Shown in pieces: positions 1 to 34,167 of a DNA stretch of 64,000 nt (position 1 is the stretch's first letter; every line of letters starts with the position of its first letter). The position numbers and the translations under genes are program-made. The notes beneath the pieces are model-generated. The model was not told where the DNA came from. It saw nothing but the letters and a program-made list of their open reading frames with translations, and did no database searches. Origin of the DNA: Selenomonas sp. TAMA-11512 (GTDB lineage Bacteria; Bacillota; Negativicutes; Selenomonadales; Selenomonadaceae); NCBI RefSeq assembly GCF_037076525.1, contig NZ_AP029018.1:372001-436000 (forward strand), read 5' to 3'.

Positions 1-3000
1 GGTGCGGATGAGAGTGCCTCGGGCAAGTATAAGGCCGCCTACGACGGTACAGACGCAGGCGATCACAATGTCACCTACAGCGGTGTAGCGCTTACGGGCG
101 CGGATGCGGGCAACTATACGCTTGGATCCTTTGCGCAGGCCGGCGCCGGAGGAGCATCGGGCACACTGACAGCGGATGCGGCGGGACTCTACAGCTTCTC
201 TGTCAAGGGGCACATCAAGTCATTGCCGCTCGATACGAATCGTCTCAAGATCAATCTCAAGGATATTACGAAGACGTATGACGGCACGAATACACTGAAG
301 GACGGCGCTCTGACAGGAGCGGACGCGTGGAAGAGCTACATTCAGGACATTTATCTTGAGGTCTCGCCGACGGGCTTGCCGAGCTCGAGGGTCTACCTGA
401 GCACGGATGACATTACACTGAACTCTGTTTCCTACACGGATGTCAATGCCGGCACGGGCAAGTCGATTGCCTATAATTTCACACTCAAGAATAATTCGAA
501 CTACTCGGTTACGAGTTCTTCGGGTACAGGTACGAACAGCTTCTCGGGCACGATTGCGGCGAACCATAACGGAATGGCTGCCGGTGCCGCGAGCGGCATC
601 ACGACGAAGAACATCGATATCACAAAGCGCAATGTCGATGTGACGATCGGCGATGCCGTCAAGACGTATGACGGAACGACGGCCGTCACAGGCAACAGCG
701 GCGCATCGCCTGCGATTACGACAGCAGCAGGTCTTGTCCGCTTTGAGACGCAAAACAATACGACGAATACAGGCTGGGTCAGAACCGATACGACACCCGG
801 CTCTATTAGTGGTGCCTATGTAGATAAGAATGCGGGCACGGGCAAGAACGCGACCTATACAATCACCTATGGCGCAAACGATCTCACGAACTACAATATC
901 ACGTATAAGGATGCGGCAAATAATGTGCTCACCGCGACGACTGCCGGGACAACGGACAGCCTGACGACGATGAACAATACGATCAACAAGCGTGAAGTCG
1001 GTCTCAATACGAAGCGGGGCATTACGAAGGTCTACGACAGAAATACGAGTGTCACCGACGCGAACGCCGTACTCGAACTGGAGGATGCCGCGGGTACGAC
1101 GGGTGTTATAGCCGCGGATAAGAGCAATCTGACGGTCAACATCGGCAGCAAGGCGTACGACTCGAAGGATGTCAAGGGTATCGAGGGCAGCACGATTCAT
1201 TACACGAATGTCTCGCTGACCGGATCGGAAACCGGCAACTACAGGCTTATCAACGGCACGGCGGCAGGCAATTCCAACTTCAGGGATCATGGCTCCGGCA
1301 CGTACTCCATCGACGGCACGGGTACGATTACACCGAAAGACCTGACGATTACGACGGGTACAGGTGCAACGAAGGTCTACGACGGAACGACTGCCGTCGA
1401 CGGCACGACGGCAGCCGCCAATGCCGTGCTTGGCCTGTCGGGCGTCATCGCCGGCGATACGGTCCATATCAAGAATGGCTACAATCGCGTCTATGCGTCG
1501 AAGAACGTCATGGGCACCGAGGGCAGCACGATCAACTACTCGAATATCCACTTGGATACGGCCGGAGATGCGGCGAACTATCGCCTCACGGCGACGACAG
1601 CGACAGGCACGGGCACGATTACGAAGCGCAAGGTCGATGTAACGATCGGTTCTGTCACGAAGGAATATGACGGTCAGATCACGATGAACAATCCGTCATC
1701 CTATGTCTCATTTGCACGGCGTGATGATAATGCCGGCACGGGATGGATAGAGACGTCTGACGCGACCGTTACAGGTGCATACCGGTCGAAGGATGTCAGC
1801 GTGGACGGAAGCGGCAATGTACAGTCGGATAAGGCGGTCGATTGGACGTTTGCTCACACTGAACTTGCCAACTACGACGTCACCTATAAGGAGTCGTCCG
1901 GCACATCTGTCGGGACAAGCAATACGACGGCGACGACGAATAACAATACAATCACGCAGAAGGTCCTCGATGTCACCTTCGGTCGTGCGGATAAGACGTA
2001 CGACGGCACGGATGATGTCCTGAACAACACGTTTACACCGGTGAACCCGGCCTTTACGGGGATGGTCAGCGGTGAGAACTACGTCATGAACAGCTCGGCG
2101 CTCTCGAAGATATCGGGCAAGTATGGAAGCAGCAGCTACGGTGAGCCTTCCTATGATGTCGCGCGTGACGGCGCGAATAACGTCGTCGATAAGCCTGTCA
2201 CGTACACCGGCATCAAGAATGCGCTGCGCGAGCTTGGTGACAACGGCGGCTTTAAGAACTCGAACTACACCGTTGCGGATACAAAATCCAACCAGGCAGG
2301 GCGCATCAATCCGCGCAACATTACGATCGACGATGTCCAGGCCGACTATGACGCCGTATCCCGTGTGTATCAAAAGGGCACGGGCGGCTATACGACGGAG
2401 ATTAATGACGCCGACGCGGCAAACTCCCTCCATCTGTGGACAATGGTACCGCCGGCAGGCGGGGGAGCATCGGTCAAGACGCTCGTCACAAAGAGCGGCG
2501 TCAAGGCATGGTTCGGCGCGGGCGATCAGGATACGACGAACAGCACGACAGATGGAGATGCGGGCACCGGCAAGACGGTCACGTATACCATCGGAAGCAT
2601 CAACAACTTCACGATTGTCGACGGCTCGGGCAACGATGCACTCGCCGGCAAGACGGACGCGGAGAAATTCACCTACCTCAACAAGAACGGCGCGGGGAAT
2701 TACCGCTGGACGAACAGTGTGGGGCAGACGTATGTGGCGGGAAGCATTGCCGGCGATACGCCGCCGACTGGGACTCCGACACCTGCGCTAGGGACGCCAA
2801 ATTCAATTATACCGCGTGTCATTACGGTCACAGCGACGGGTAAACATCGGAAGGTCTATGACGGGACAAAGGATCTCACAGGGTATACGCTGAGTGATCT
2901 TGTCTTTGCGCCCACTACGACTGCAGACAGACGCGGTGTAGTGAACGGGCAGGGCATCTTTGCGCTCGACGCGGAAGCAGGTACGGCGTTTACAGCCGGT

Positions 3001-5211
3001 ACGGCGGAGTATGGCGGCAAGGATGCGGGTACGCAGGACGTCAAGTACACGCTAAATCTCGCGAACGGCAATGGCAACTACAGCGTCAAGTACATCGATG
3101 CGGCTGGAAATACGGTAACCGACACCACGACGACAGGTACGCCGCTTTCCGTCACCATCCTCGGCAGGGGACTCGGGACGATTGATAAGCGCAAGGTCAA
3201 GGTCAGCCTTGGCACGACGACGGGGCTGGATAAGACGTACGATGGCAGTGATGCTGTCACGGCAGGCAATACGATCGTCGTCGAGCGCAATGCGGACGCG
3301 ACAGATGACAATGCCAAGGATACGGGCATCCTCTCGACGGAGAGCGCGGATCTCTCGGATAACGCTATAGCGCTCAATCTCGCCGGAAAGGGCAAGTATC
3401 AGGCGGTTGGCAGCGAGGGCGCGGACGGCGTCTATCGCGAGCGCGACGTGAACTCGGGCTACTATGACGAGACATATAAGGATATTACCTACGATGTTTC
3501 GGGTCTGACACTGACAGAGGGCTCCGGCGCTCCACCGACGACGCTTGCGTCGAATTATGAACTTGTCACGGACAATACGGTGGACTATGATGCCGTCCGC
3601 ACGTCCGGCGCCTCGGCGGCTGCGGATAACGCCGCGAAGCAGCTTCGTGCGACGGGGACGATCAATCCGAAGAGAATAAAGCTGCAGACGAAGGCGGATC
3701 CGACGAAGACGTACGACGGCACGACGGACGTCAGCAGTGCGTACGGCACCCTTGCGAACATCACGGCGGGCGCGCGCACGGATGCGGATATCTTGACGGA
3801 TGCGGATGATACGGCTGCGACGGCGGGGATTTCCCTTGTCGGCACGCCGCAGTACAACTCGAAGAATGTCTCCGAGGCGAATCAGGCTGCGTATGTGCTC
3901 AACCAGACGAACGGCAACTACGACATCTACGATGTCACGGGGGCGAATAAGCTCTCGAAGTGGACGAGTGCGACGACGGCGACGGCAGAGCTCTCTACAG
4001 CGGCAACCATCACGCCAAAGGCGCTCACATGGGCTCCCGCCGCTAACTTCGGCTATGCCAACAAGACATACGACGGCACGGATGAGGTCAAAAACGCGGT
4101 GGACAATATTCTGTCCCTGTCCGGCATGACGGGTACGAACAGCGGCAGTGCTGTCAGCGGCATTGTCGACGACGCGGATCGCGCGAAGATACGCGCCGGA
4201 CTCAAAGTCATCGGCAAGTACCAGGAGACAGCTCCCGGAGCCGGGAACGCCGCGGACGCGGCGGTGGCTAATGCCACATCGGCGACGATCGGCGTCGACG
4301 CGGACGGCAACTCAATCACGAGTGAGGACGCGCTCATCAACCATAATGTGACATATCAGATTTCCGTCGATCCGTCGAAGATGGACGCCACGACAGCGGC
4401 GAACTATGATTTCACAGGGATAGCAGCCGGTAGGGGGAAAGGATCGATCAGTCGCGCCGAGCTCACCGTAGAGACGGACAGTCTCACCATCCCGATGGAT
4501 ACGGCGGTGCCCGGCATCACGGGCAGAGTGCGAGGGGCGGTTGCCGGCGGAGAAGCTGTCAACCAGGGAGACTTCGCCTACGGCATCGACGACGCTTCCT
4601 ATCAGGGGACGGGGCCGGACAGCGTGACGCTGAAGGGCTCCACCAGACTGCGTCCCGCCTATCGTCTCGCCGGCAAGTACGGAGGAAAGACGGAGGGCAA
4701 CTACGGTAAGAACTACAGATTCAGGAATCAATACGGATCACTCGATGTGAAGATGTCGGCTCCCGGCAGCGAGGACATAGGCGCGAAGAATGCACTTACG
4801 GACGCGCGCCGCTTTACGCCGGATGACTTTGTGTGGTACGACGCATCGCTTACGGACAAGAAGGGGAAGACGTACTACCGCGAGCCGAAAGCTCTCGTGG
4901 AGCGCATAGAACCGTCGGTCAAGATCGACGGCGCGCTCACCGCGGAGGAAGCGCTGCTCTCGACGATACCGAGCGGCTTCGGCAACTATGCGGGACTGGT
5001 GATCCCGGTCTCCGCAGGGAAGCAGGACGCGTCGCGCACGGAGCGCAGGGGCGGAACGCCGGAAGACGGCGTGAAGCTTACGCTTCTCCTGAATACGGAT
5101 GCGCCCGATGATGAGGATGCGCTGGAAGAGGAAAGCGAGGAGGCGAAGATCCTCGCCCGCCGCAGAGCGATGATTGCGATTCGGACAGAGGGCTTGGGTG
5201 TAGCCATGTAA
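1..5211 (+). CDS. YDG-repeat filamentous surface adhesin, 5' truncated by window edge
   Basis: The frame is open from base 1, so this is the C-terminal part (about 1736 codons) of a larger protein; the first ATG/TTG-type codon near 223 is not a real start because coding pattern continues upstream. The protein is a tandem array of YDG domains, each opening with a KTYDGT-like motif. I see these near bases 274, 661, 1021, 1369, 1654, 1990, 2335 (degenerate), 2848, 3226, 3700 and 4060, spaced about 290-510 bp. Composition is rich in T, N, G, D and A with almost no Cys, typical of extracellular beta-rich repeat stalks of haemagglutinin-type adhesins, often secreted by a two-partner route. The last 250 residues lack YDG motifs and contain a charged tail (DDEDALEEESEEAK). 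No membrane anchor or autotransporter barrel is visible. Role in cell-surface adhesion is inferred from the family. Confidence 0.85.
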   Translation, partial: GADESASGKYKAAYDGTDAGDHNVTYSGVALTGADAGNYTLGSFAQAGAGGASGTLTADAAGLYSFSVKGHIKSLPLDTNRLKINLKDITKTYDGTNTLKDGALTGADAWKSYIQDIYLEVSPTGLPSSRVYLSTDDITLNSVSYTDVNAGTGKSIAYNFTLKNNSNYSVTSSSGTGTNSFSGTIAANHNGMAAGAASGITTKNIDITKRNVDVTIGDAVKTYDGTTAVTGNSGASPAITTAAGLVRFETQNNTTNTGWVRTDTTPGSISGAYVDKNAGTGKNATYTITYGANDLTNYNITYKDAANNVLTATTAGTTDSLTTMNNTINKREVGLNTKRGITKVYDRNTSVTDANAVLELEDAAGTTGVIAADKSNLTVNIGSKAYDSKDVKGIEGSTIHYTNVSLTGSETGNYRLINGTAAGNSNFRDHGSGTYSIDGTGTITPKDLTITTGTGATKVYDGTTAVDGTTAAANAVLGLSGVIAGDTVHIKNGYNRVYASKNVMGTEGSTINYSNIHLDTAGDAANYRLTATTATGTGTITKRKVDVTIGSVTKEYDGQITMNNPSSYVSFARRDDNAGTGWIETSDATVTGAYRSKDVSVDGSGNVQSDKAVDWTFAHTELANYDVTYKESSGTSVGTSNTTATTNNNTITQKVLDVTFGRADKTYDGTDDVLNNTFTPVNPAFTGMVSGENYVMNSSALSKISGKYGSSSYGEPSYDVARDGANNVVDKPVTYTGIKNALRELGDNGGFKNSNYTVADTKSNQAGRINPRNITIDDVQADYDAVSRVYQKGTGGYTTEINDADAANSLHLWTMVPPAGGGASVKTLVTKSGVKAWFGAGDQDTTNSTTDGDAGTGKTVTYTIGSINNFTIVDGSGNDALAGKTDAEKFTYLNKNGAGNYRWTNSVGQTYVAGSIAGDTPPTGTPTPALGTPNSIIPRVITVTATGKHRKVYDGTKDLTGYTLSDLVFAPTTTADRRGVVNGQGIFALDAEAGTAFTAGTAEYGGKDAGTQDVKYTLNLANGNGNYSVKYIDAAGNTVTDTTTTGTPLSVTILGRGLGTIDKRKVKVSLGTTTGLDKTYDGSDAVTAGNTIVVERNADATDDNAKDTGILSTESADLSDNAIALNLAGKGKYQAVGSEGADGVYRERDVNSGYYDETYKDITYDVSGLTLTEGSGAPPTTLASNYELVTDNTVDYDAVRTSGASAAADNAAKQLRATGTINPKRIKLQTKADPTKTYDGTTDVSSAYGTLANITAGARTDADILTDADDTAATAGISLVGTPQYNSKNVSEANQAAYVLNQTNGNYDIYDVTGANKLSKWTSATTATAELSTAATITPKALTWAPAANFGYANKTYDGTDEVKNAVDNILSLSGMTGTNSGSAVSGIVDDADRAKIRAGLKVIGKYQETAPGAGNAADAAVANATSATIGVDADGNSITSEDALINHNVTYQISVDPSKMDATTAANYDFTGIAAGRGKGSISRAELTVETDSLTIPMDTAVPGITGRVRGAVAGGEAVNQGDFAYGIDDASYQGTGPDSVTLKGSTRLRPAYRLAGKYGGKTEGNYGKNYRFRNQYGSLDVKMSAPGSEDIGAKNALTDARRFTPDDFVWYDASLTDKKGKTYYREPKALVERIEPSVKIDGALTAEEALLSTIPSGFGNYAGLVIPVSAGKQDASRTERRGGTPEDGVKLTLLLNTDAPDDEDALEEESEEAKILARRRAMIAIRTEGLGVAM

Positions 5212-5281: not shown

Positions 5282-5430
5282 TGTCCAAAATCGTAAGAAA
5301 ACGCGTAGCGTGGGCTGGGAGATTGCCTGTGTAAAAGGACGGAACGATTATTGTGTTTTATTGTTTTCACGTATATATAAACAATTCATGACATCAAGTA
5401 TATTGTTTTAAAAAAATTCAAAAATAAGTA

Positions 5431-5459
5431 TTGCATTTTGAAGGAGGATATGATATATT
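5431..5459 (+). promoter_or_regulatory. promoter of the candidate large RNA
   Basis: TTGCAT (5431-5436), 17 bp spacer, TATATT (5454-5459), with a TGA extended -10 directly before it. Transcription should begin near 5466. No start codon with a ribosome binding site follows. Confidence 0.65.
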
Positions 5460-5465
5460 GAAGCT

Positions 5466-6467
5466 ACAAAGAGGAAGAAAGGATATCGGAAAGCTCCGGT
5501 GGGAGCGACGATATCTGCCGAAACAGGCTCTTCCTGCATGAGCGGAACAGAATATGGGAAGGGGCGATGTGCTTGCAGCAGATACCGGACACGGAGCAAT
5601 GCTCTAAGACGTTCGAACCCGACGAAGTTCGAGATGCGGTTACTCGGTGCACAGTTGAAGAGACGGCTGTCATTCGTTGACTGTCGAAAGGTATGATAGG
5701 TCATGGGGTCGGTATATCCGACCGGAGGACGTGCCGTACCTAGTTGGATGGAAGATGATGGAGCGGCAAAAAAGGCACGATTACCGGCACTCGGAGGACG
5801 AGGGTAAGACGTGAAGCGCGAGGGATTTCCAAAGCCGGGTCGGTTTTGGAATCATTGTAGGCATACGTGATTTCGGATGGTATAACTGCGGCGGATGAGC
5901 CGGTCGTGATGTATGTGCAGACTTGCGGCGGGGGTGCACACCTGACGGGATGGATACACATGGCGTACCTGACGAGAAAGGGTACAGAGCATCGCAATCG
6001 GATTGGATTGTTAAGACACGGTTCAAAGTGCGAGGCATGGCGCTTTACTATAGAGGTAGGCGTTGTGGTGAACAGCGACGTTCTCGATGTAAGGCGAGAG
6101 ACGAAACGATGACCGCAAAAAAGTAATGCCGGATGTACAGCGATACGGAAGCGGCATACGAGAGCGGGTCGATGGAGTCAAATCCGGGTGATTTCGGTAA
6201 ATGTCAACGTGATACGGATACAGACAGAGACGATTTCAGTAGGTGTCGCGACCGCAGGTGAAAATCGAGGTTAGCATGTCAGGCCTGACATATCGATAAC
6301 ATCCATAGAAAACCAAGAAGTGTATTGTATCGAAAGATTTGCACGCAGAGCGGAACCTCAGGGGCTCAGACGGTGGGCTCCGCATGTGAGTGAAAAAGCT
6401 GAAAACTTCATACAGATCCAAAATGTAAGAGGGCAGGTACACCGGTGAGTGTACCTGCCCTTAACCG
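5466..6467 (+). ncRNA. candidate large structured non-coding RNA, about 1 kb, family not recognised
   Basis: This kilobase has no reading frame with a credible ribosome binding site or protein-like composition, yet it is bounded by a near-ideal promoter and by a 12-bp GC-rich hairpin. It is purine-rich and packed with local helices: 5481-5488 with 5509-5516, enclosing 5493-5497/5502-5506; 5594-5604; 5613-5618/5627-5632; 5707-5712/5718-5723; 5824-5837/5841-5853 (13 bp with one bulge); 5914-5919/5935-5940; 6276-6281/6286-6291; 6350-6357/6375-6383. Length and density recall the very large bacterial RNAs GOLLD, ROOL and OLE, but I cannot match it to any of them by sequence. It does not show the conserved cores of RNase P RNA, tmRNA, SRP RNA or 6S RNA, and no intron-encoded protein is present. 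A decayed coding region remains a possible alternative, though decay would not be expected to leave a promoter, helices and terminator. Confidence 0.55.
6431..6466 (+). terminator. terminator-like hairpin ending the large RNA
   Basis: Perfect 12-bp stem GGGCAGGTACAC (6431-6442) with its complement at 6449-6460 and a six-base loop, followed by TTAACCGTTTT. The T-tract is interrupted. Confidence 0.65.
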
Positions 6468-6514
6468 TTTTCGATTGATATTGCAATGTAATTTTAAATC
6501 AATAAAAATATAAT

Positions 6515-6543
6515 TTGACAAAATATAAAAAGGCGATTATAAT
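6515..6543 (+). promoter_or_regulatory. promoter of the glutathione peroxidase gene
   Basis: Consensus TTGACA (6515-6520), 17 bp spacer, TATAAT (6538-6543). The leader is only about 45 nt. Confidence 0.85.
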
Positions 6544-6594: not shown

Positions 6595-7146
6595 ATGAGC
6601 ATTTTCGAGTACAAACTGCAGGATAAGAAGGGCGGAGAGGTTTCCCTGAAGGATTTCGAGGGACAGGTGCTCCTCATCGCCAACACGGCGTCCAAGTGCG
6701 GATTTACGCCGCAGTATGAAGGACTGGAGAAGCTCTACAAGAAGTATAAGGAGCAGGGGTTCACGATACTTGCCGTGCCTTCCAATCAGTTCGGCGAGCA
6801 GGAGCCGGGGTCGAATGACGAGGTGCAGCAGTTCTGCCGCGTCAACTACGGCGTTTCGTTCCCTGTCATGGGCAAGGCGGATGTGCGCGGAGAGACGGCG
6901 ATCCCTCTCTTCAAGTATCTGACGAAGGAGAAGGGCTTCCATGGATTCCCTCCCTCGGAGATGACGGATGTCCTGCTCGGGCACATCAAGAAAAATCTGC
7001 CGGCGGATTATCTCGATGATGATCAGATCAAGTGGAACTTCACAAAGTTCCTCATCAATAAAAAAGGCGAGGTTGTCGAGCGCTTCGAACCTGCCGTCAC
7101 ACCGGCGGAAATGGAAGCTGCCGTTGAGAAGCTCCTGGCGGAATGA
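6595..7146 (+). CDS. glutathione peroxidase family thiol peroxidase
   Basis: A 183-residue cytoplasmic peroxidase of the GPx fold that reduces hydrogen peroxide and organic hydroperoxides. The peroxidatic Cys35 sits in NTASKCGFTPQY, the catalytic Gln in SNQFGEQEPG near residue 65, and the Trp-Asn pair in KWNFTKFL near residue 137. It is a Cys, not selenocysteine, enzyme; bacterial members of this type generally use thioredoxin as reductant, which is family knowledge and not shown here. The ATG at 6595 was chosen because AAGGAGGA lies seven bases upstream; an in-frame ATG at 6544 has no site and lies within the promoter region. It is monocistronic, between its own consensus promoter and a bidirectional terminator. 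Confidence 0.93.
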   Translation: MSIFEYKLQDKKGGEVSLKDFEGQVLLIANTASKCGFTPQYEGLEKLYKKYKEQGFTILAVPSNQFGEQEPGSNDEVQQFCRVNYGVSFPVMGKADVRGETAIPLFKYLTKEKGFHGFPPSEMTDVLLGHIKKNLPADYLDDDQIKWNFTKFLINKKGEVVERFEPAVTPAEMEAAVEKLLAE

Positions 7147-9818: not shown

Positions 9819-11386
9819 GTATGTGTCAAGATTTTCTCGGTGGTGAGTTTTCACCCTTGATGTGTCTGCCTTCGTGGCATAGTCTTTTTTTGCCTCTAAG
9901 CAAAGCATTTGGACAAATGTCCAATCCCACTGCTCATCGGCGCACTTACTGTAATCCTCCCATGTCGGACCCCGTCATACGTCGTCCTCTTGCTTCTTTT
10001 CAATGCCTCTCGCACGGCTCCGCGGAAGTCTCTTCCTGCCTTCGCATTGAACCACTCCGCCTTCGCCGCCATGGCCTCTCGCAGATCACCGTTCTTCAAT
10101 CCAGTGATGATCTTTACCATCGCTTCGCCACCGGCTCGACTCCATCGTCTGCCTTGCTTCTTCATCCGGTAGCTGTAGAGCCTATGGTTGCTTTCACACG
10201 TCCCCAAAAGCTTCCTGTATTCCCCGATCCCTCGTTCTTCCAAGCCGGCAAGGTATATCCAGTTTCTTTCTATGTACTTTCGAAGAAGCTCCACTTGTTC
10301 CGTTTGTCGCTCATCTTGGGACATAGATTCCACGGTATCCAATACAAGGCTCACTTCCTCACGCTCATGTATATACAGCGCTTTGTGTAGTTTCTTACAC
10401 AGGGTCGAATTCGCCCATAAAAGGCGTTCTCTGCATTTCCTTTGTACGTGGTACCAATCCAGAAAGTGCTCATGCTGGCCGACGCTTCCAAGGATTTCTT
10501 CAAAGACGCCGCAGGTGTAACCGGCACCTCCATCACTGTTGCTCAGAACCAGGGTATGGGTTAGATCATAGTGGCTCCCCAGATAGTGCAGCAGACTCTC
10601 TTTGGCTTTCTCGTGATCGAGATTCGCTACATAGTGGGTGCCAATAAGGGTACGACGGTTGCCGTTTTCTTGTACGCCTTCGGCGATTTGGAATCGATGG
10701 AGCTCGAGCTGTTTCTTATTCTGCCCGTGCAGCATGAGTCCATCCCCTTCGATGTAGAGAACTTCCGGTCGGCGCAGTTCTGTCTCTTCCATGGGATCGG
10801 TGCTTTCCTGCAATTTCTCCCAAGCACCATAGGTTTCTCCTACTCGTCTCACGACATGTGCAACTTGTTGGTGGCTTATCGTGACGGGACTCAGCAGGTT
10901 GACGACAGCGGCTGTATCACGGTAGACGCTCTTGGCTGCAATACAGGCAATAACGTATTCCAAATAGGCGGTGTATCTCCGGTAAGGGCGAATACCCACT
11001 TCTTTGTCCAAGGGGTATATACTGGCTTCTCCTTCTTTTTTCATGCGCCTGCGACGGATTTGAATCGTTCCGTAGCTTGCTTGCACGCACCGTGCATCAA
11101 GCCGTTCCACGTGCCAGCCTTTGGCTGCGTATCGCTTTGCCAGTTCTTTGTCAATTCGTTCGAATGCCTCACTAACTGCACGGCATATCAGGGTTTCAAA
11201 GTAACTGCGCAGTTGTTCTTCTTGGGAGATATTGTCTTTTGTACCCTTTATTATTTCCAGGATTTCTGTTACAATAGTTTCCATAAGAGACCTTCCTTCT
11301 TGTGTATTCGCCTCGTTAGCATACACTTTAGGGTACTGGTCTCTTTCTCTTTTTGCAACCCCCTCCGAGAACTATTTTACACTTAC
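9819..11386 (-). mobile_element. ISLre2-family insertion sequence, copy A
   Basis: A 1568-bp element whose coding-strand left end (GTAAGTGTAAAATAG) is at 11386 and right end (CTTGACACATAC) at 9819. Both ends match copy B at 13564-15131. It is flanked by a perfect 9-bp direct repeat CATCCTATG at 9810-9818 and 11387-11395, the target duplication size expected of the family. The intact duplication shows it inserted as a single unit. Confidence 0.9.
9896..11284 (-). CDS. ISLre2-family (UPF0236) transposase, copy A
   Basis: A 462-residue transposase of the UPF0236/ISLre2 family. Residues 1-100 are helical and charged; the recognisable stretches YIEGDGLMLHGQNKK, SNSDGGAGYTCGVFEEILG and HFLDWYHVQRKCRERL carry the acidic and aromatic residues typical of the catalytic part. 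The ATG at 11284 follows AAGGAAGG; an upstream in-frame codon gives a longer but unsupported start. It differs from copy B at one visible residue (KKQLELH here, KKQIELH in B), so the two copies diverged very recently. The frame is full length and appears intact. Confidence 0.92.
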   Translation of the reverse strand: METIVTEILEIIKGTKDNISQEEQLRSYFETLICRAVSEAFERIDKELAKRYAAKGWHVERLDARCVQASYGTIQIRRRRMKKEGEASIYPLDKEVGIRPYRRYTAYLEYVIACIAAKSVYRDTAAVVNLLSPVTISHQQVAHVVRRVGETYGAWEKLQESTDPMEETELRRPEVLYIEGDGLMLHGQNKKQLELHRFQIAEGVQENGNRRTLIGTHYVANLDHEKAKESLLHYLGSHYDLTHTLVLSNSDGGAGYTCGVFEEILGSVGQHEHFLDWYHVQRKCRERLLWANSTLCKKLHKALYIHEREEVSLVLDTVESMSQDERQTEQVELLRKYIERNWIYLAGLEERGIGEYRKLLGTCESNHRLYSYRMKKQGRRWSRAGGEAMVKIITGLKNGDLREAMAAKAEWFNAKAGRDFRGAVREALKRSKRTTYDGVRHGRITVSAPMSSGIGHLSKCFA

Positions 11387-12791: not shown

Positions 12792-13010
12792 GTGGCAACC
12801 TCCTGTCTGCATCGGGAGATAGGCTGTCCGCTGCCTGTCATCCTGTGTACAGGATACTGCAAACAGTGTCCATTTTCTACCCCCTCTGTGTCCAGTTTTA
12901 GTTTACCACTTCAGCAGGCGTGTTTTTTCACACTTGGCGCTTTTTCGACCATAAGTAATGCGCGTTTCATACGCTGCGTGAGAGCGTATAAAAATCTTGC
13001 TCTCAAAAAA

Positions 13011-13028
13011 TGTACGCTATAATGTACA
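13011..13028 (+). promoter_or_regulatory. YefM-type operator overlapping the toxin-antitoxin promoter
   Basis: Two half sites, TGTACG (13011-13016) and TGTACA (13023-13028), surround the -10 TATAAT (13018-13023). YefM antitoxins are known to recognise TGTACA palindromes, so autorepression is expected. A weak -35 TCTTGC lies 17 bp upstream. Confidence 0.65.
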
Positions 13029-13045
13029 TGGAAGGAGGGCTTATC

Positions 13046-13294
13046 ATGCAGGTAATAAACGCAACGACGTTTCGGCAGAATCTGTTTCAAACGCTTGAGC
13101 AGACCGTGCGCTACAATGAGCCGATTCATATCACGGGCAAGGAGGGGACGGCAGTGCTCATGAGTGAGTCGGACTATAACGACCTGATGGCGACGATTGA
13201 GCTTTGCGCCGTTCCCGGTATACAGAAGAAAATCGTTGACGGGCTGAACACGTCAACGGAAGATTGCCTGTCGGCGGATGAGGTGGAGTGGTGA
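13046..13294 (+). CDS. yefM: YefM/Phd-family antitoxin
   Basis: An 82-residue antitoxin. Residues 1-55 form the YefM/Phd DNA-binding dimer domain (MQVINATTFRQNLFQTLEQ, then EPIHITGKEGTAVLMSESDYNDLMAT), and the acidic C-terminal tail (CLSADEVEW) is the toxin-binding part. AAGGAGG lies seven bases before the ATG at 13046. The stop overlaps the toxin start, the usual translational coupling. Its promoter holds TGTACA operator sites. Because the partner toxin is broken, the antitoxin may now be kept only as an orphan repressor. Confidence 0.9.
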   Translation: MQVINATTFRQNLFQTLEQTVRYNEPIHITGKEGTAVLMSESDYNDLMATIELCAVPGIQKKIVDGLNTSTEDCLSADEVEW

Positions 13295-13557
13295 GCTATC
13301 GGATCGTCTACACGAAGGCGGCGGCAGCCGATGTGCCGAAACTGAAGGCTGCGCGTTTGGCGAAGAAAGCGCGAGCGCTCCTTGGGATTCTTGAGGAGAA
13401 TCCATTTCAAAACCCGCCGCCTTACGAAAAGCTTCGCGGCAGCTTGCAGGGCGCATACGCGAGGCGGATCAATATCTGGCATCGGTTGGTGTACGAGGTC
13501 TTGGAAGAAAAAAAGACGGTCAAGATCATCAGCATGTAGACGCATTACGAGTTCTAG
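13288..13557 (+). pseudogene. yoeB: Txe/YoeB-family toxin, C-terminus lost to a nonsense codon
   Basis: YoeB toxins cut mRNA on the ribosome. The frame (GTG at 13288 or 13291, overlapping the antitoxin stop) encodes the full family core: YEKLRG (catalytic Glu), RRINIWHRLVYEV (catalytic Arg) and KKTVKIISM. In this family the next residues are usually WTHYE. Here ATG is followed by TAG (13537-13539) and then ACG-CAT-TAC-GAG, that is THYE, so TGG has become TAG. The active-site His-Tyr pair at the C-terminus (His83-Tyr84 in E. coli YoeB) is not translated. The second ISLre2 element inserted seven bases after the old end of the gene. Inactivation is an inference from the missing catalytic residues. 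Confidence 0.8.
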
Positions 13558-13563
13558 GGAAGC

Positions 13564-15131
13564 GTAAGTGTAAAATAGTTCTCGGAGGGGGTTGCAAAAA
13601 GAGAAAGAGACCAGTACCCTAAAGTGCATGCTAACGAGGCGAATACACAAGAAGGAAGGTCTCTTATGGAAACTATTGTAACAGAAATCCTGGAAATAAT
13701 AAAGGGTACAAAAGACAATATCTCACAAGAAGAACAACTGCGCAGTTACTTTGAAACCCTGATATGCCGTGCAGTTAGTGAGGCATTCGAACGAATTGAC
13801 AAAGAACTGGCAAAGCGATACGCAGCCAAAGGCTGGCACGTGGAACGGCTTGATGCACGGTGCGTGCAAGCAAGCTACGGAACGATTCAAATCCGTCGCA
13901 GGCGCATGAAAAAAGAAGGAGAAGCCAGTATATACCCCTTGGACAAAGAAGTGGGTATTCGCCCTTACCGGAGATACACCGCCTATTTGGAATACGTTAT
14001 TGCCTGTATTGCAGCCAAGAGCGTCTACCGTGATACAGCCGCTGTCGTCAACCTGCTGAGTCCCGTCACGATAAGCCACCAACAAGTTGCACATGTCGTG
14101 AGACGAGTAGGAGAAACCTATGGTGCTTGGGAGAAATTGCAGGAAAGCACCGATCCCATGGAAGAGACAGAACTGCGCCGACCGGAAGTTCTCTACATCG
14201 AAGGGGATGGACTCATGCTGCACGGGCAGAATAAGAAACAGATCGAGCTCCATCGATTCCAAATCGCCGAAGGCGTACAAGAAAACGGCAACCGTCGTAC
14301 CCTTATTGGCACCCACTATGTAGCGAATCTCGATCACGAGAAAGCCAAAGAGAGTCTGCTGCACTATCTGGGGAGCCACTATGATCTAACCCATACCCTG
14401 GTTCTGAGCAACAGTGATGGAGGTGCCGGTTACACCTGCGGCGTCTTTGAAGAAATCCTTGGAAGCGTCGGCCAGCATGAGCACTTTCTGGATTGGTACC
14501 ACGTACAAAGGAAATGCAGAGAACGCCTTTTATGGGCGAATTCGACCCTGTGTAAGAAACTACACAAAGCGCTGTATATACATGAGCGTGAGGAAGTGAG
14601 CCTTGTATTGGATACCGTGGAATCTATGTCCCAAGATGAGCGACAAACGGAACAAGTGGAGCTTCTTCGAAAGTACATAGAAAGAAACTGGATATACCTT
14701 GCCGGCTTGGAAGAACGAGGGATCGGGGAATACAGGAAGCTTTTGGGGACGTGTGAAAGCAACCATAGGCTCTACAGCTACCGGATGAAGAAGCAAGGCA
14801 GACGATGGAGTCGAGCCGGTGGCGAAGCGATGGTAAAGATCATCACGGGATTGAAGAATGGTGATCTGCGAGAGGCCATGGCGGCGAAGGCGGAGTGGTT
14901 CAATGCGAAGGCAGGAAGAGACTTCCGCGGAGCCGTGCGAGAGGCATTGAAAAGAAGCAAGAGGACGACGTATGACGGGGTCCGACACGGGAGGATTACA
15001 GTAAGTGCGCCGATGAGCAGTGGGATTGGACATTTGTCCAAATGCTTTGCTTAGAGGCAAAAAAAGACTATGCCACGAAGGCAGACACATCAAGGGTGAA
15101 AACTCACCACCGAGAAAATCTTGACACATAC
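13564..15131 (+). mobile_element. ISLre2-family insertion sequence, copy B
   Basis: The same 1568-bp element as copy A in opposite orientation, from GTAAGTGTAAAATAG to CTTGACACATAC. It is flanked by its own 8-bp direct repeat AGGGAAGC (13556-13563 and 15132-15139), different from that of copy A. It lies between the toxin remnant and the promoter of the TPP riboswitch gene. Confidence 0.9.
13666..15054 (+). CDS. ISLre2-family (UPF0236) transposase, copy B
   Basis: A 462-residue transposase, identical to copy A at every residue I compared except Ile for Leu in KKQIELH. It has the same start (ATG at 13666 after AAGGAAGG), the same catalytic-region motifs (YIEGDGLMLHG, SNSDGGAGYTCG, FLDWYHVQRKC) and no frameshift. 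Two almost identical copies 2.2 kb apart in opposite orientation indicate recent transposition and make the interval between them liable to inversion by recombination. Confidence 0.92.
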   Translation: METIVTEILEIIKGTKDNISQEEQLRSYFETLICRAVSEAFERIDKELAKRYAAKGWHVERLDARCVQASYGTIQIRRRRMKKEGEASIYPLDKEVGIRPYRRYTAYLEYVIACIAAKSVYRDTAAVVNLLSPVTISHQQVAHVVRRVGETYGAWEKLQESTDPMEETELRRPEVLYIEGDGLMLHGQNKKQIELHRFQIAEGVQENGNRRTLIGTHYVANLDHEKAKESLLHYLGSHYDLTHTLVLSNSDGGAGYTCGVFEEILGSVGQHEHFLDWYHVQRKCRERLLWANSTLCKKLHKALYIHEREEVSLVLDTVESMSQDERQTEQVELLRKYIERNWIYLAGLEERGIGEYRKLLGTCESNHRLYSYRMKKQGRRWSRAGGEAMVKIITGLKNGDLREAMAAKAEWFNAKAGRDFRGAVREALKRSKRTTYDGVRHGRITVSAPMSSGIGHLSKCFA

Positions 15132-15176: not shown

Positions 15177-15177
15177 C

Positions 15178-15275
15178 ACGACAAACAGGGGAGTCTCAAT
15201 AGAGGCTGAGAGGAAGCTGATGTGCTTCGACCCTTGACCTGATGCGGATCATGCCGCCGTAGGAAGTTTTGTCTG
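15178..15275 (+). ncRNA. TPP (THI element) riboswitch
   Basis: The leader contains the conserved thi-box segments: GGGGAGTC, then GGCTGAGAGGAAG, ACCCTTGACCTGATGCGGAT and CATGCCGCCGTAGGAAG, in the correct order and spacing. P1 can form between GACAAAC (about 15179-15185) and GTTTTGTC (about 15266-15273). It binds thiamine pyrophosphate and lowers expression of the downstream transporter. Downstream, an 11-bp hairpin is available as the terminator. Confidence 0.95.
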
Positions 15276-15311
15276 CAAAACCCTTTTTGTGCATTTGACA
15301 TGCCTACAGCG

Positions 15312-15346
15312 AGAGCTGCCCGCATCGGGCAGTTCTTTATTGTTTA
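15312..15346 (+). terminator. riboswitch-controlled terminator
   Basis: AGAGCTGCCCG (15312-15322) pairs with CGGGCAGTTCT (15326-15336), followed by TTATTGTTTAT, between the TPP aptamer and cytX. A second weaker hairpin GTTTTG/CAAAAC with CCTTTTT lies at about 15266-15288. Confidence 0.65.
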
Positions 15347-15368
15347 TATGCGGAAAGAAGGGATTTCT

Positions 15369-16628
15369 ATGACGACGGACGCGGGAATGGCGTGCGCACA
15401 TGAGACGAAAAGCCGTCTCATCCAATCGGAAGGCAGGCACAACGGCAGCAATTCGGAAAGCACATCGCTTCTCACGAACGCGCTGCTGTGGTTCGGCGCA
15501 GGTGTATCGCTCGCCGAAATATTGACGGGTACATATCTCGCCGGGATGGAGCTGTCCTCGGCGGTGCTTGCCATTGTGTTGGGGCATATCATCGGCGGGG
15601 TTCTGCTCTTTTTCTCCGGCCTTATAGGGGCACGGGAGAAATTGGCCGCGATGGACACGGTAAAGGGGAGCTTCGGCTCGATCGGCGGCCGTCTCTTCGC
15701 GGTTCTGAACGTCGTACAGCTTGTCGGCTGGACGGGGATCATGCTCTATGACGGCGCTCTCGCCACGGAGGGCATCTATCCCCTCGGGGGAGCGACGTAT
15801 GCCGTAATATTGGGCCTGCTGCTGCTCTTTTGGCTGCATCGCGGTCTTGCGCACGCAAGCCGTGTCAATGTTTTTGCCGTCGCGGGCCTCTTCCTTCTGA
15901 CGCTCGTGCTCTCCTATGTCCTTGCCTCGGGCGGCAGCAGCATGGGGGTCATCGAGGCATCGTCCGCCGAGGTCATGACCTTTGGCGCCGCTCTGGAGCT
16001 CAGTATTGTCATGCCGCTTTCCTGGCTGCCGCTCATCAGTGACTACACGAGCAAGGCGGCCTCTCCGATACGCGCCACGGCAGTCAGCGCCGTGAGCTAC
16101 ACGGTGGTCAGCATTTGGATGTACGGCATCGGTATGACAGCCGCGAAATACTTCGGTGAATCCGACATATCGGCCATTCTCCTGAAGGCGGGGCTCGGTA
16201 CGGCGGCTCTTTTCATCGTCCTTTTCTCCACGGTTACGACGGCCTTTCTCGATGCCTACTCGGCGGGCGTCTCGGCGCGCTCCATATCGAGCCGTATCGA
16301 CGAGACGAAAGCCGCTGTCTCTGTCGTCATTCTCGGTACGCTCGGCGCGATGTTCCTGCCCATGGATGACATTACGGAATTTCTCTACTTCATCGGTTCG
16401 GTCTTTGCGCCGATGATCGCTATTCTGCTGACGGATTATTTTCTGCTCGGACACAAGGAGACGGTCGGGGCGTTCCACATCAAAAATCTTCGGCTGTGGC
16501 TCGTCGGATTCATCCTCTACCGCTATGTGATGAGCATTGAGCTTTCCTACGGCTATACGATTCCCACGATGCTCGCCGTCGCCGCGCTGAAGTACGGCTG
16601 GGAGAAAATCAGCCCCGCTCGGGCTTGA
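15369..16628 (+). CDS. cytX: putative hydroxymethylpyrimidine transporter CytX (NCS1 family)
   Basis: A 419-residue inner membrane protein with about twelve hydrophobic helices (for example WFGAGVSLAEILTGTYLAG, VILGLLLLFW, FLLTLVLSYVLA, IPTMLAVAALKYG). It belongs to the NCS1 nucleobase permeases, and the CytX subgroup is associated with uptake of the thiamine precursor HMP. The TPP riboswitch directly upstream supports this role. The ATG at 15369 follows AAGAAGGG; a possible upstream ATG at 15348 has a poorer site. The gene stands alone, with thiE 15 kb away in its own unit. Confidence 0.88.
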   Translation: MTTDAGMACAHETKSRLIQSEGRHNGSNSESTSLLTNALLWFGAGVSLAEILTGTYLAGMELSSAVLAIVLGHIIGGVLLFFSGLIGAREKLAAMDTVKGSFGSIGGRLFAVLNVVQLVGWTGIMLYDGALATEGIYPLGGATYAVILGLLLLFWLHRGLAHASRVNVFAVAGLFLLTLVLSYVLASGGSSMGVIEASSAEVMTFGAALELSIVMPLSWLPLISDYTSKAASPIRATAVSAVSYTVVSIWMYGIGMTAAKYFGESDISAILLKAGLGTAALFIVLFSTVTTAFLDAYSAGVSARSISSRIDETKAAVSVVILGTLGAMFLPMDDITEFLYFIGSVFAPMIAILLTDYFLLGHKETVGAFHIKNLRLWLVGFILYRYVMSIELSYGYTIPTMLAVAALKYGWEKISPARA

Positions 16629-33874: not shown

Positions 33875-34167
33875 AATTTCATAAAAAAGACGATGAGCAG
33901 GAAAAGTAACGCGTCGGAAAGCCTAAAGAGAGCCGTGCCAGCTGAGAATCGGTGACCGGAAGATGCGTGAAGTTCCCCTGGGAGTTGCTCCGCTGAAGGT
34001 ATATGGTGTAGGCGGAGACGGAGCCCTTACCGTTAGAAGAGGGAGCATATCGGTGATGCCCCGCGTGTCACCCGCATGCGCAGAGAGCTTCTCCCCCGCG
34101 GAGAAGAAGTAAGGTGGTACCGCGAGATGATTCCCGTCCTTTACATATTGTAAAGAACGGGTTTTTG
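33875..34167 (+). ncRNA. T-box leader, probably phenylalanine-specific
   Basis: The T-box sequence AAGGTGGTACCGCGAGA is at 34111-34127. In Stem I, ACGCGTC pairs with GATGCGT and the loop-E halves AGTA and GAA flank the specifier loop, where GAAG-TTC-CCC gives TTC (Phe). TGG (Trp) also occurs a few bases later, so the specifier is probable and not certain. Uncharged tRNA binding would form the antiterminator and switch off the terminator that follows, allowing pheA and aroF expression. Confidence 0.9.

Follow-up and report, generated by a model that had tools for sequence, protein, structure and literature searches.

To our knowledge, few classes of bacterial RNA longer than 300 nt are known besides rRNA, tmRNA, RNase P RNA and introns. 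According to excerpts of PMC12286853, ROOL measures 659 nt and many GOLLD RNAs exceed 800 nt, both are encoded by prophages or phages, often near tRNA islands, and OLE, GOLLD and ROOL all proved unusual once their structures had been solved; OLE is about 600 nt long (excerpt of PMC9723947). An RNA of about 1 kb, with its own promoter and belonging to no known family, had been predicted from the sequence at positions 5431-6467 of the stretch of DNA analysed here (64,000 nt, hereafter the window). We found that, judged from sequence comparison, about 5430-5661 (+ strand) is a structured-RNA gene and not a protein gene, and that its family is absent from Rfam. The original prediction was thus upheld for the 5' part, by relatives, a -10-like box and covariation, but not for the extent of about 1 kb, since relatives are mostly 320-600 nt long and the last 800 nt or so have no detectable relative.

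The region contains no credible protein gene, as had been stated: stops interrupt all six frames, the longest stop-to-stop runs (145-147 aa) lie on the reverse strand and the GC contents of the three codon positions (53/53/49%) give no signal. None of its 10 ORFs matched Pfam, and a comparison of the same ORFs with PHROGs returned two chance-level matches (E 0.19 and 0.32). The region is purine-rich (61% versus a mean of 53%; 11 of 1260 windows compared were equally high). Its separateness from known families was confirmed, as none of 4227 Rfam models scored above threshold. No Rfam match in the region reached the gathering score, GOLLD, ROOL, OLE and raiA gave none at E ≤10, and the best sub-threshold match was MicC, on the reverse strand, with 29 bits versus the 90 required. 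RNase P RNA was excluded, the genome's own being found at C1:633710-634061 (297 bits), and so was any other Rfam RNA at the thresholds used. A scan of 17 homologous loci at E ≤0.5 also gave no GOLLD, ROOL, OLE or raiA, the matches consisting of flanking tRNAs and sub-threshold noise. Searches of the openly accessible literature, covering main texts, yielded no description of the RNA; it could be an unnamed entry in a published candidate list.

BLASTN with the whole region found no significant homologue in 189 genomes of the window's family, 380 genomes of its class, phages or plasmids. The closest glutathione peroxidases among the listed relatives are 63% identical to the one encoded in the window, indicating that its lineage is isolated among the genomes examined. 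In view of this isolation and of the lack of BLASTN or Rfam matches, we therefore built a covariance model (R1) from the window's 5' domain alone (first 85 nt). Applied to the 189 family genomes at E ≤1, R1 gave 15 matches besides that in its own genome and exposed a near-invariant hairpin, CWGCCGAAACAGGCUCU (the P3 motif); 10 of the 15 fell on motif-bearing places, and those in G132, G140, G186, G176 and G084, which did not, were set aside. An exact search with the motif CWGCCGAAACAGGCTCTYYY found 22 places in 21 of the 189 genomes (own genome included), and a backward-pattern control found none in the same 189. Some BLASTN matches of 17-20 nt at query positions 82-103 (E 0.2-0.6; for example in G121, G141 and G150) turned out to be the P3 motif of true members.

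Among 84,980 species genomes, the P3 pattern occurred in 50 stretches. Nineteen of these are members of the RNA family, with at least 27.3 bits in R2, a model with 26 pairs made from 11 close members; the other 31 scored at most 18.6 bits or did not match. The 19 members, which overlap with the motif-bearing genomes of the 189-genome set, are titled Selenomonas, Mitsuokella, Selenomonadaceae or Veillonellaceae and include Selenomonas ruminantium. The P3 motif had no match in IMG/VR viral contigs, and the window region had none in phage records. A cluster of matches at 5843-5883, first read as a conserved block, was rejected, the three loci checked being coding DNA (by eye, for Lon, a glycosyltransferase and a PAS/HD protein).

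R2 also found members outside its training set, the divergent ones with about 23-108 bits. At E ≤0.05 it matched 59 of the 380 class genomes, all from the window's family; two matches are doubtful, those in G109 (locus L203, without R3 match) and G045 (L201, 18.4 bits). These 59 genomes, one of which holds two copies, yield together with the window copy 61 candidates, 49 of which served for a model made without the window (R3). Omitted from R3 were the window copy, L201, L203, the divergent L192, L193, L195 and L196, and the near-duplicates L147, L151, L157, L167 and L171; L201 and L203 were kept in the counts on 61 candidates (ORF, -10 box, length) and in the larger covariation alignment described below.

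Close to one third of the related genomes that were analysed carry the RNA family. In the R2 scan, all genomes of genera g23 (6/6) and g24 (7/7) had the RNA, and none of g3 and g6 did. The window copy was missing from the results of the R2 and R3 genome scans, and the distribution counts are lower bounds because the strict-filter scan missed the window genome. Among 398 phylum-wide genomes, R3 matched five of the window's family and one other, G453 (L205); this sole match outside the family was rejected as coding DNA by eye. The genome G163 holds two copies, on contigs C1 and C21, with different P2 arms, and may be a mixed assembly. In the divergent loci L190, L193, L194 and L197, P3 or its surroundings differ and the later blocks are kept; these loci should be useful for a wider structure model.

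Comparison of the members showed a conserved predicted 5' domain in which a helix, P1, surrounds the near-invariant P3 and an arm, P2/P2b, that varies. In the window, on the + strand, the domain (5472..5535) is closed by P1, pairing 5472-5478 with 5529-5535 (predicted p 0.98). P2 (5481-5488/5509-5516) is capped by P2b (5493-5497/5502-5506) in the predicted fold, spanning 5481..5516, and the hairpin P3 (5517-5519/5526-5528) lies in the near-invariant motif CUGCCGAAACAGGCUCUUCC (5515..5534, from the motif search). Most copies combine a -10-like box, the P1-P2-P3 domain, a Shine-Dalgarno-like element and a terminator-like hairpin. By the loose criteria of a script, 50 of 61 copies have a TANNNT box 10-12 nt upstream of P1, and 60 have a hairpin with T's after it. 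In relatives, this hairpin mostly lies about 320-600 nt from the start of the domain; in the window the distance is about 1 kb.

Covariation was indeed present in the homologues. In the R2 alignment, 8 of the 26 pairs show changes on both sides, amounting to 21 cells versus 7.8 after shuffling, and 0 of 500 shuffles were as high. A larger alignment was fitted to the model and comprises 64 rows (60 distinct), among them the doubtful rows, the window row, repeated rows from two genomes and, in L202, a second match that is spurious. There, 21 of the 26 modelled pairs change on both sides (179 cells versus 50.9 shuffled), and 91.7% of cells are paired versus 43-55% when the alignment is slid. For P1, 99.2% of cells are paired in relatives and 6 of 7 pairs show both-side changes in this model-fitted alignment; model helices 2-4, which bear on P2/P2b, covary as well. 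RNAalifold, run without shuffle control on the 3' half of 12 relatives, predicted 70 pairs, 17 of them with both-side changes, including pairs of the terminator stem. Homologues and covariation together show that the putative RNA of about 5430-5661 is more than a chance feature, which does not apply to 5665-6428.

The membership of the window copy (about 5430-5661) in this family is, in our judgement, secure. R3, from which it had been excluded, matches 5469-5627 across the whole model (24.0 bits, E 3.2e-4 in 64 kb). R2 gave the copy just 16.5 bits (E 0.012), the best score in the 64 kb, which counts against membership. P1 directly flanks P2 and P3 with a -10 box about 11 nt upstream (12 nt before P1 by eye), and the positions of P1 and promoter are those found in relatives. 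The P3 motif, in the form CWGCCGAAANAGGCUCU, has one exact occurrence in the window; a further match, with 3 mismatches, is unrelated. The family block GUGCANNGKUGAAG is found, exact, collinear and at the expected place, at 5647..5660 (+ strand); as GTGCANNGKTGAAG, it is the single match in 64 kb at ≤1 mismatch (0.48 expected). The family order of a GAAAGGA element followed by this block is kept, GAAGGGG at 5558-5564 being a near match only. The conserved 3' half was not found in the window copy, and several other divergent members also align partly; a sequence profile built on the relatives in full length matches the window at the P3 motif only (5.3 bits, E 0.024).

The predicted extended -10 promoter (5431..5459, + strand) has the exact pattern TTGCAT, 17 nt, TGA TATATT; with ≤2 mismatches, TTGCAT-N14-TGA-TATATT occurs twice in 64 kb versus 0.25 expected. 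It had been called near-ideal, which is correct for the extended -10 but not for the -35 hexamer TTGCAT, with 3/6 consensus positions; because of this weak hexamer, a consensus promoter scan did not list 5431-5459. The proposed end hairpin is real and counts 14 pairs including G-U (6429-6462, + strand; predicted p 0.99); it is the probable 3' end. It is followed by AACCGTTTT, and since this is not a clean U-run its terminator activity is uncertain; a terminator scan made a call on the - strand only.

In many relatives, both neighbour genes are on the strand opposite to the RNA, which argues for a stand-alone gene; we take the window RNA to be, likewise, an independent gene and not a leader. 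Several lineages have the same neighbours by eye, namely yqeB-like and comFC-like genes upstream and a radical-SAM gene downstream, all on the opposite strand; in a few relatives, for instance L103 and L105, the first ORF downstream shares the strand of the RNA. In the window, a repetitive, adhesin-like ORF of 1662 aa with YDG domains (223-5211, + strand) lies directly upstream of the RNA gene. Two near-identical 476-aa ORFs stand in opposite orientation at 9896-11326 (- strand; matching Pfam UPF0236) and 13624-15054 (+ strand), and the interval between them holds an ORF for an IS3-like rve transposase as well as a small toxin-antitoxin locus (13010-13539, + strand), in which Phd/YefM antitoxin and YoeB-like toxin genes overlap by a few bases. 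A TPP riboswitch directly precedes a cytosine/purine/thiamine-type permease gene (15177-16628, + strand), and a T-box leader scores above the Rfam gathering score at 33884-34144 (+ strand).

The GAAAGGA element downstream of P3 is nearly complementary to the usual 16S rRNA tail; a search with two patterns did not find this tail (anti-Shine-Dalgarno) in the present genome. At its place, by alignment to R3, the window has the Shine-Dalgarno-like GGGAAGGGG (5556..5564, + strand), followed by the AUG of a possible short ORF of 37 codons (5567..5680, + strand; from the ORF listing). We examined 49 distinct regions of relatives, obtained from the 61 copies after removal of 7 unfit for the pattern (the window's included) and 5 duplicates. 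In 37 of them an NTG (ATG, GTG or TTG) stands 2-6 nt after AAGG and shares its frame with an ATT codon further on, and because the frame is kept through several spacings this supports ribosome binding. The start was absent in the other 12, including 5 of the 6 g23 genomes, which have GCG there.

The conserved ATT-GAA codons could also be explained by base pairing alone. A conserved UUGAAGA at the start region is complementary to the 3' strand of P1, and pairing of the two would form a helix, P4, that competes with P1. In the window this possible helix (5534-5538 with 5574-5578, hence 5534..5578, + strand; by eye) shares 2 nt with P1. In 11 relatives, 97.4% of P4 cells are paired, one pair changes on both sides and 54 of 500 shuffles were as high; its covariation is weak.

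Taking these observations together, we incline slightly towards a stand-alone structured-RNA gene whose product would act in trans and engage ribosomes, with a possible shift between P1 and P4. The RNA family is the part of this joint reading that the comparisons have demonstrated; the mechanism is one that we infer and rate low. The RNA would be a trans-acting one, regulatory or part of a ribonucleoprotein. Its GAAAGGA element would probably be bound by ribosomes (or by the 30S subunit), and either this event or the short ORF being translated could switch it between its P1 and P4 states, the larger and variable 3' part supplying a target- or protein-binding surface. Its most specific version, a rather unlikely one, would be a ribosome-coupled RNA switch of about 320-1000 nt acting in trans, in which the Shine-Dalgarno-like element would load ribosomes at a start site enclosed by a branch-migrating P1/P4 junction and the translation state would set the fold of a large 3' domain; the lineage of the window would have expanded this domain to about 1 kb.

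We considered the possibility that the RNA resembles OLE, ROOL and GOLLD in being a scaffold or in self-assembling. Its fold, together with proteins or in an RNA multimer, would then itself do the work, and the likeness of a conserved loop sequence to a Shine-Dalgarno element would be coincidental. This main rival, doubtful but with a real chance, agrees with the large size, the strong structure and the conserved segments, with a start codon that is not universal, and with the single R2 match in 57 of the 59 matching genomes. It accounts less well for the NTG that stays in frame across several spacings; moreover, inspection by eye of the listed neighbours of 12 loci brought up no associated protein gene, and the neighbouring genes vary from lineage to lineage.

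It is possible, though in our view unlikely, that only the first 200 nt or so are the family RNA and that the other 800 nt are unrelated, a second RNA or decayed DNA. For the window-specific middle part (5665..6428, + strand), the predicted fold has local helices at 5689-5702/5728-5741 and 5828-5837/5841-5850 and a multi-helix part at 6186-6304. It had no relative in BLASTN searches of the 189 family and 380 class genomes or with the full-length sequence profile, and the relatives are, as mentioned, mostly 320-600 nt long. The local fold z-score, strong at 5461-5580 (-2.8; reverse strand -4.0), 5641-5760 (-3.6) and the end, is near zero at 6121-6420, which also favours the shorter RNA. Three of the four helices listed in the original prediction were recovered (5481-5488/5509-5516 with its inner hairpin, 5707-5712/5718-5723 and 5828-5837/5841-5850, p 0.96-1.0), but 6276-6281/6286-6291 was not favoured, its bases pairing elsewhere in the prediction, and only the first of the four, P2/P2b, lies inside the conserved domain. 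Against a shorter RNA speak the lack of long reading frames, the stable end hairpin, and the fold of the whole body, which without this hairpin (965 nt) reaches z -4.55 on the + strand and only -1.1 on the reverse strand, versus dinucleotide shuffles. Folding stability alone proves little, since one of two coding controls reached z -3.4 (the other -0.37). A consensus scan of the + strand at 5460-6514 revealed no second promoter, which also speaks for one RNA, but the same scan missed that at 5431.

The RNA might instead be the mRNA of a very short peptide, which would be the actual product and serve as a leader peptide or small effector; the structured portion would be an untranslated region. 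The Shine-Dalgarno-like element with its NTG in 37 of 49 regions and the related peptide starts (MFIED, MVIED, MSIDD) would fit this idea. Yet the predicted peptides range from 4 to 40+ residues, in many members a stop comes within a few codons, the start is lost in most g23 genomes, and conservation extends far past the ORF. A universal translated peptide was therefore not upheld; protein-level conservation, which would have spoken against an RNA gene, was assessed by inspection of the short ORF. We consider a peptide product improbable. Least credible by far is a long 5' leader controlling the glutathione peroxidase gene, the next downstream (6595-7146, + strand; Pfam GSHPx 3.5e-37), which starts about 130 nt past the end hairpin on the same strand but has its own consensus promoter (6515..6543, + strand; 12/12 consensus matches), is present in 110 of 189 family genomes and was not seen beside the RNA either in the 12 relatives' listed loci (by eye) or, with nhmmer, at 29 relatives' glutathione peroxidase copies.

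The RNA is rated as a new family, so far seen in Selenomonadaceae only (a name taken from the titles of named relatives), and as of a kind already known. It is present in cultured species such as Selenomonas ruminantium, its covariation suffices for drawing a first structure, and its conserved ribosome-binding-like element makes direct tests of its action possible. A comparison can be drawn, for the way of working and with no homology claimed, with RNAIII of Staphylococcus aureus, a strongly folded RNA of about 500 nt with a short ORF inside. The smtA motif ('Soda Lake RNA') is likewise large (>350 nt), covarying, limited to one bacterial group and of unknown function; the description excerpted from PMC11109978 sets it apart, as it occurs in Thioalkalivibrio only, upstream of smtA. 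The gltD motif of Selenomonadales/Veillonellales and the ldh2 motif of Negativicutes are structured RNA candidates too, but according to the excerpted description (PMC8632094) they are riboswitch candidates directly upstream of gltD and ldh2. The raiA motif, or ModT RNA, is also a conserved structured RNA of Bacillota and others (excerpt of PMC11706538), from which the new RNA differs in having no Rfam match to it. Like the new RNA, GOLLD, ROOL and OLE are large and structured, come from bacteria, fall in a similar size range and have functions that are for the most part unknown; the likeness originally proposed holds for size and kind but not for sequence, the new RNA having no Rfam match to any of the three. 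Unlike ROOL and GOLLD, the new RNA has the loci inspected here, by eye, among ordinary-looking chromosomal genes.
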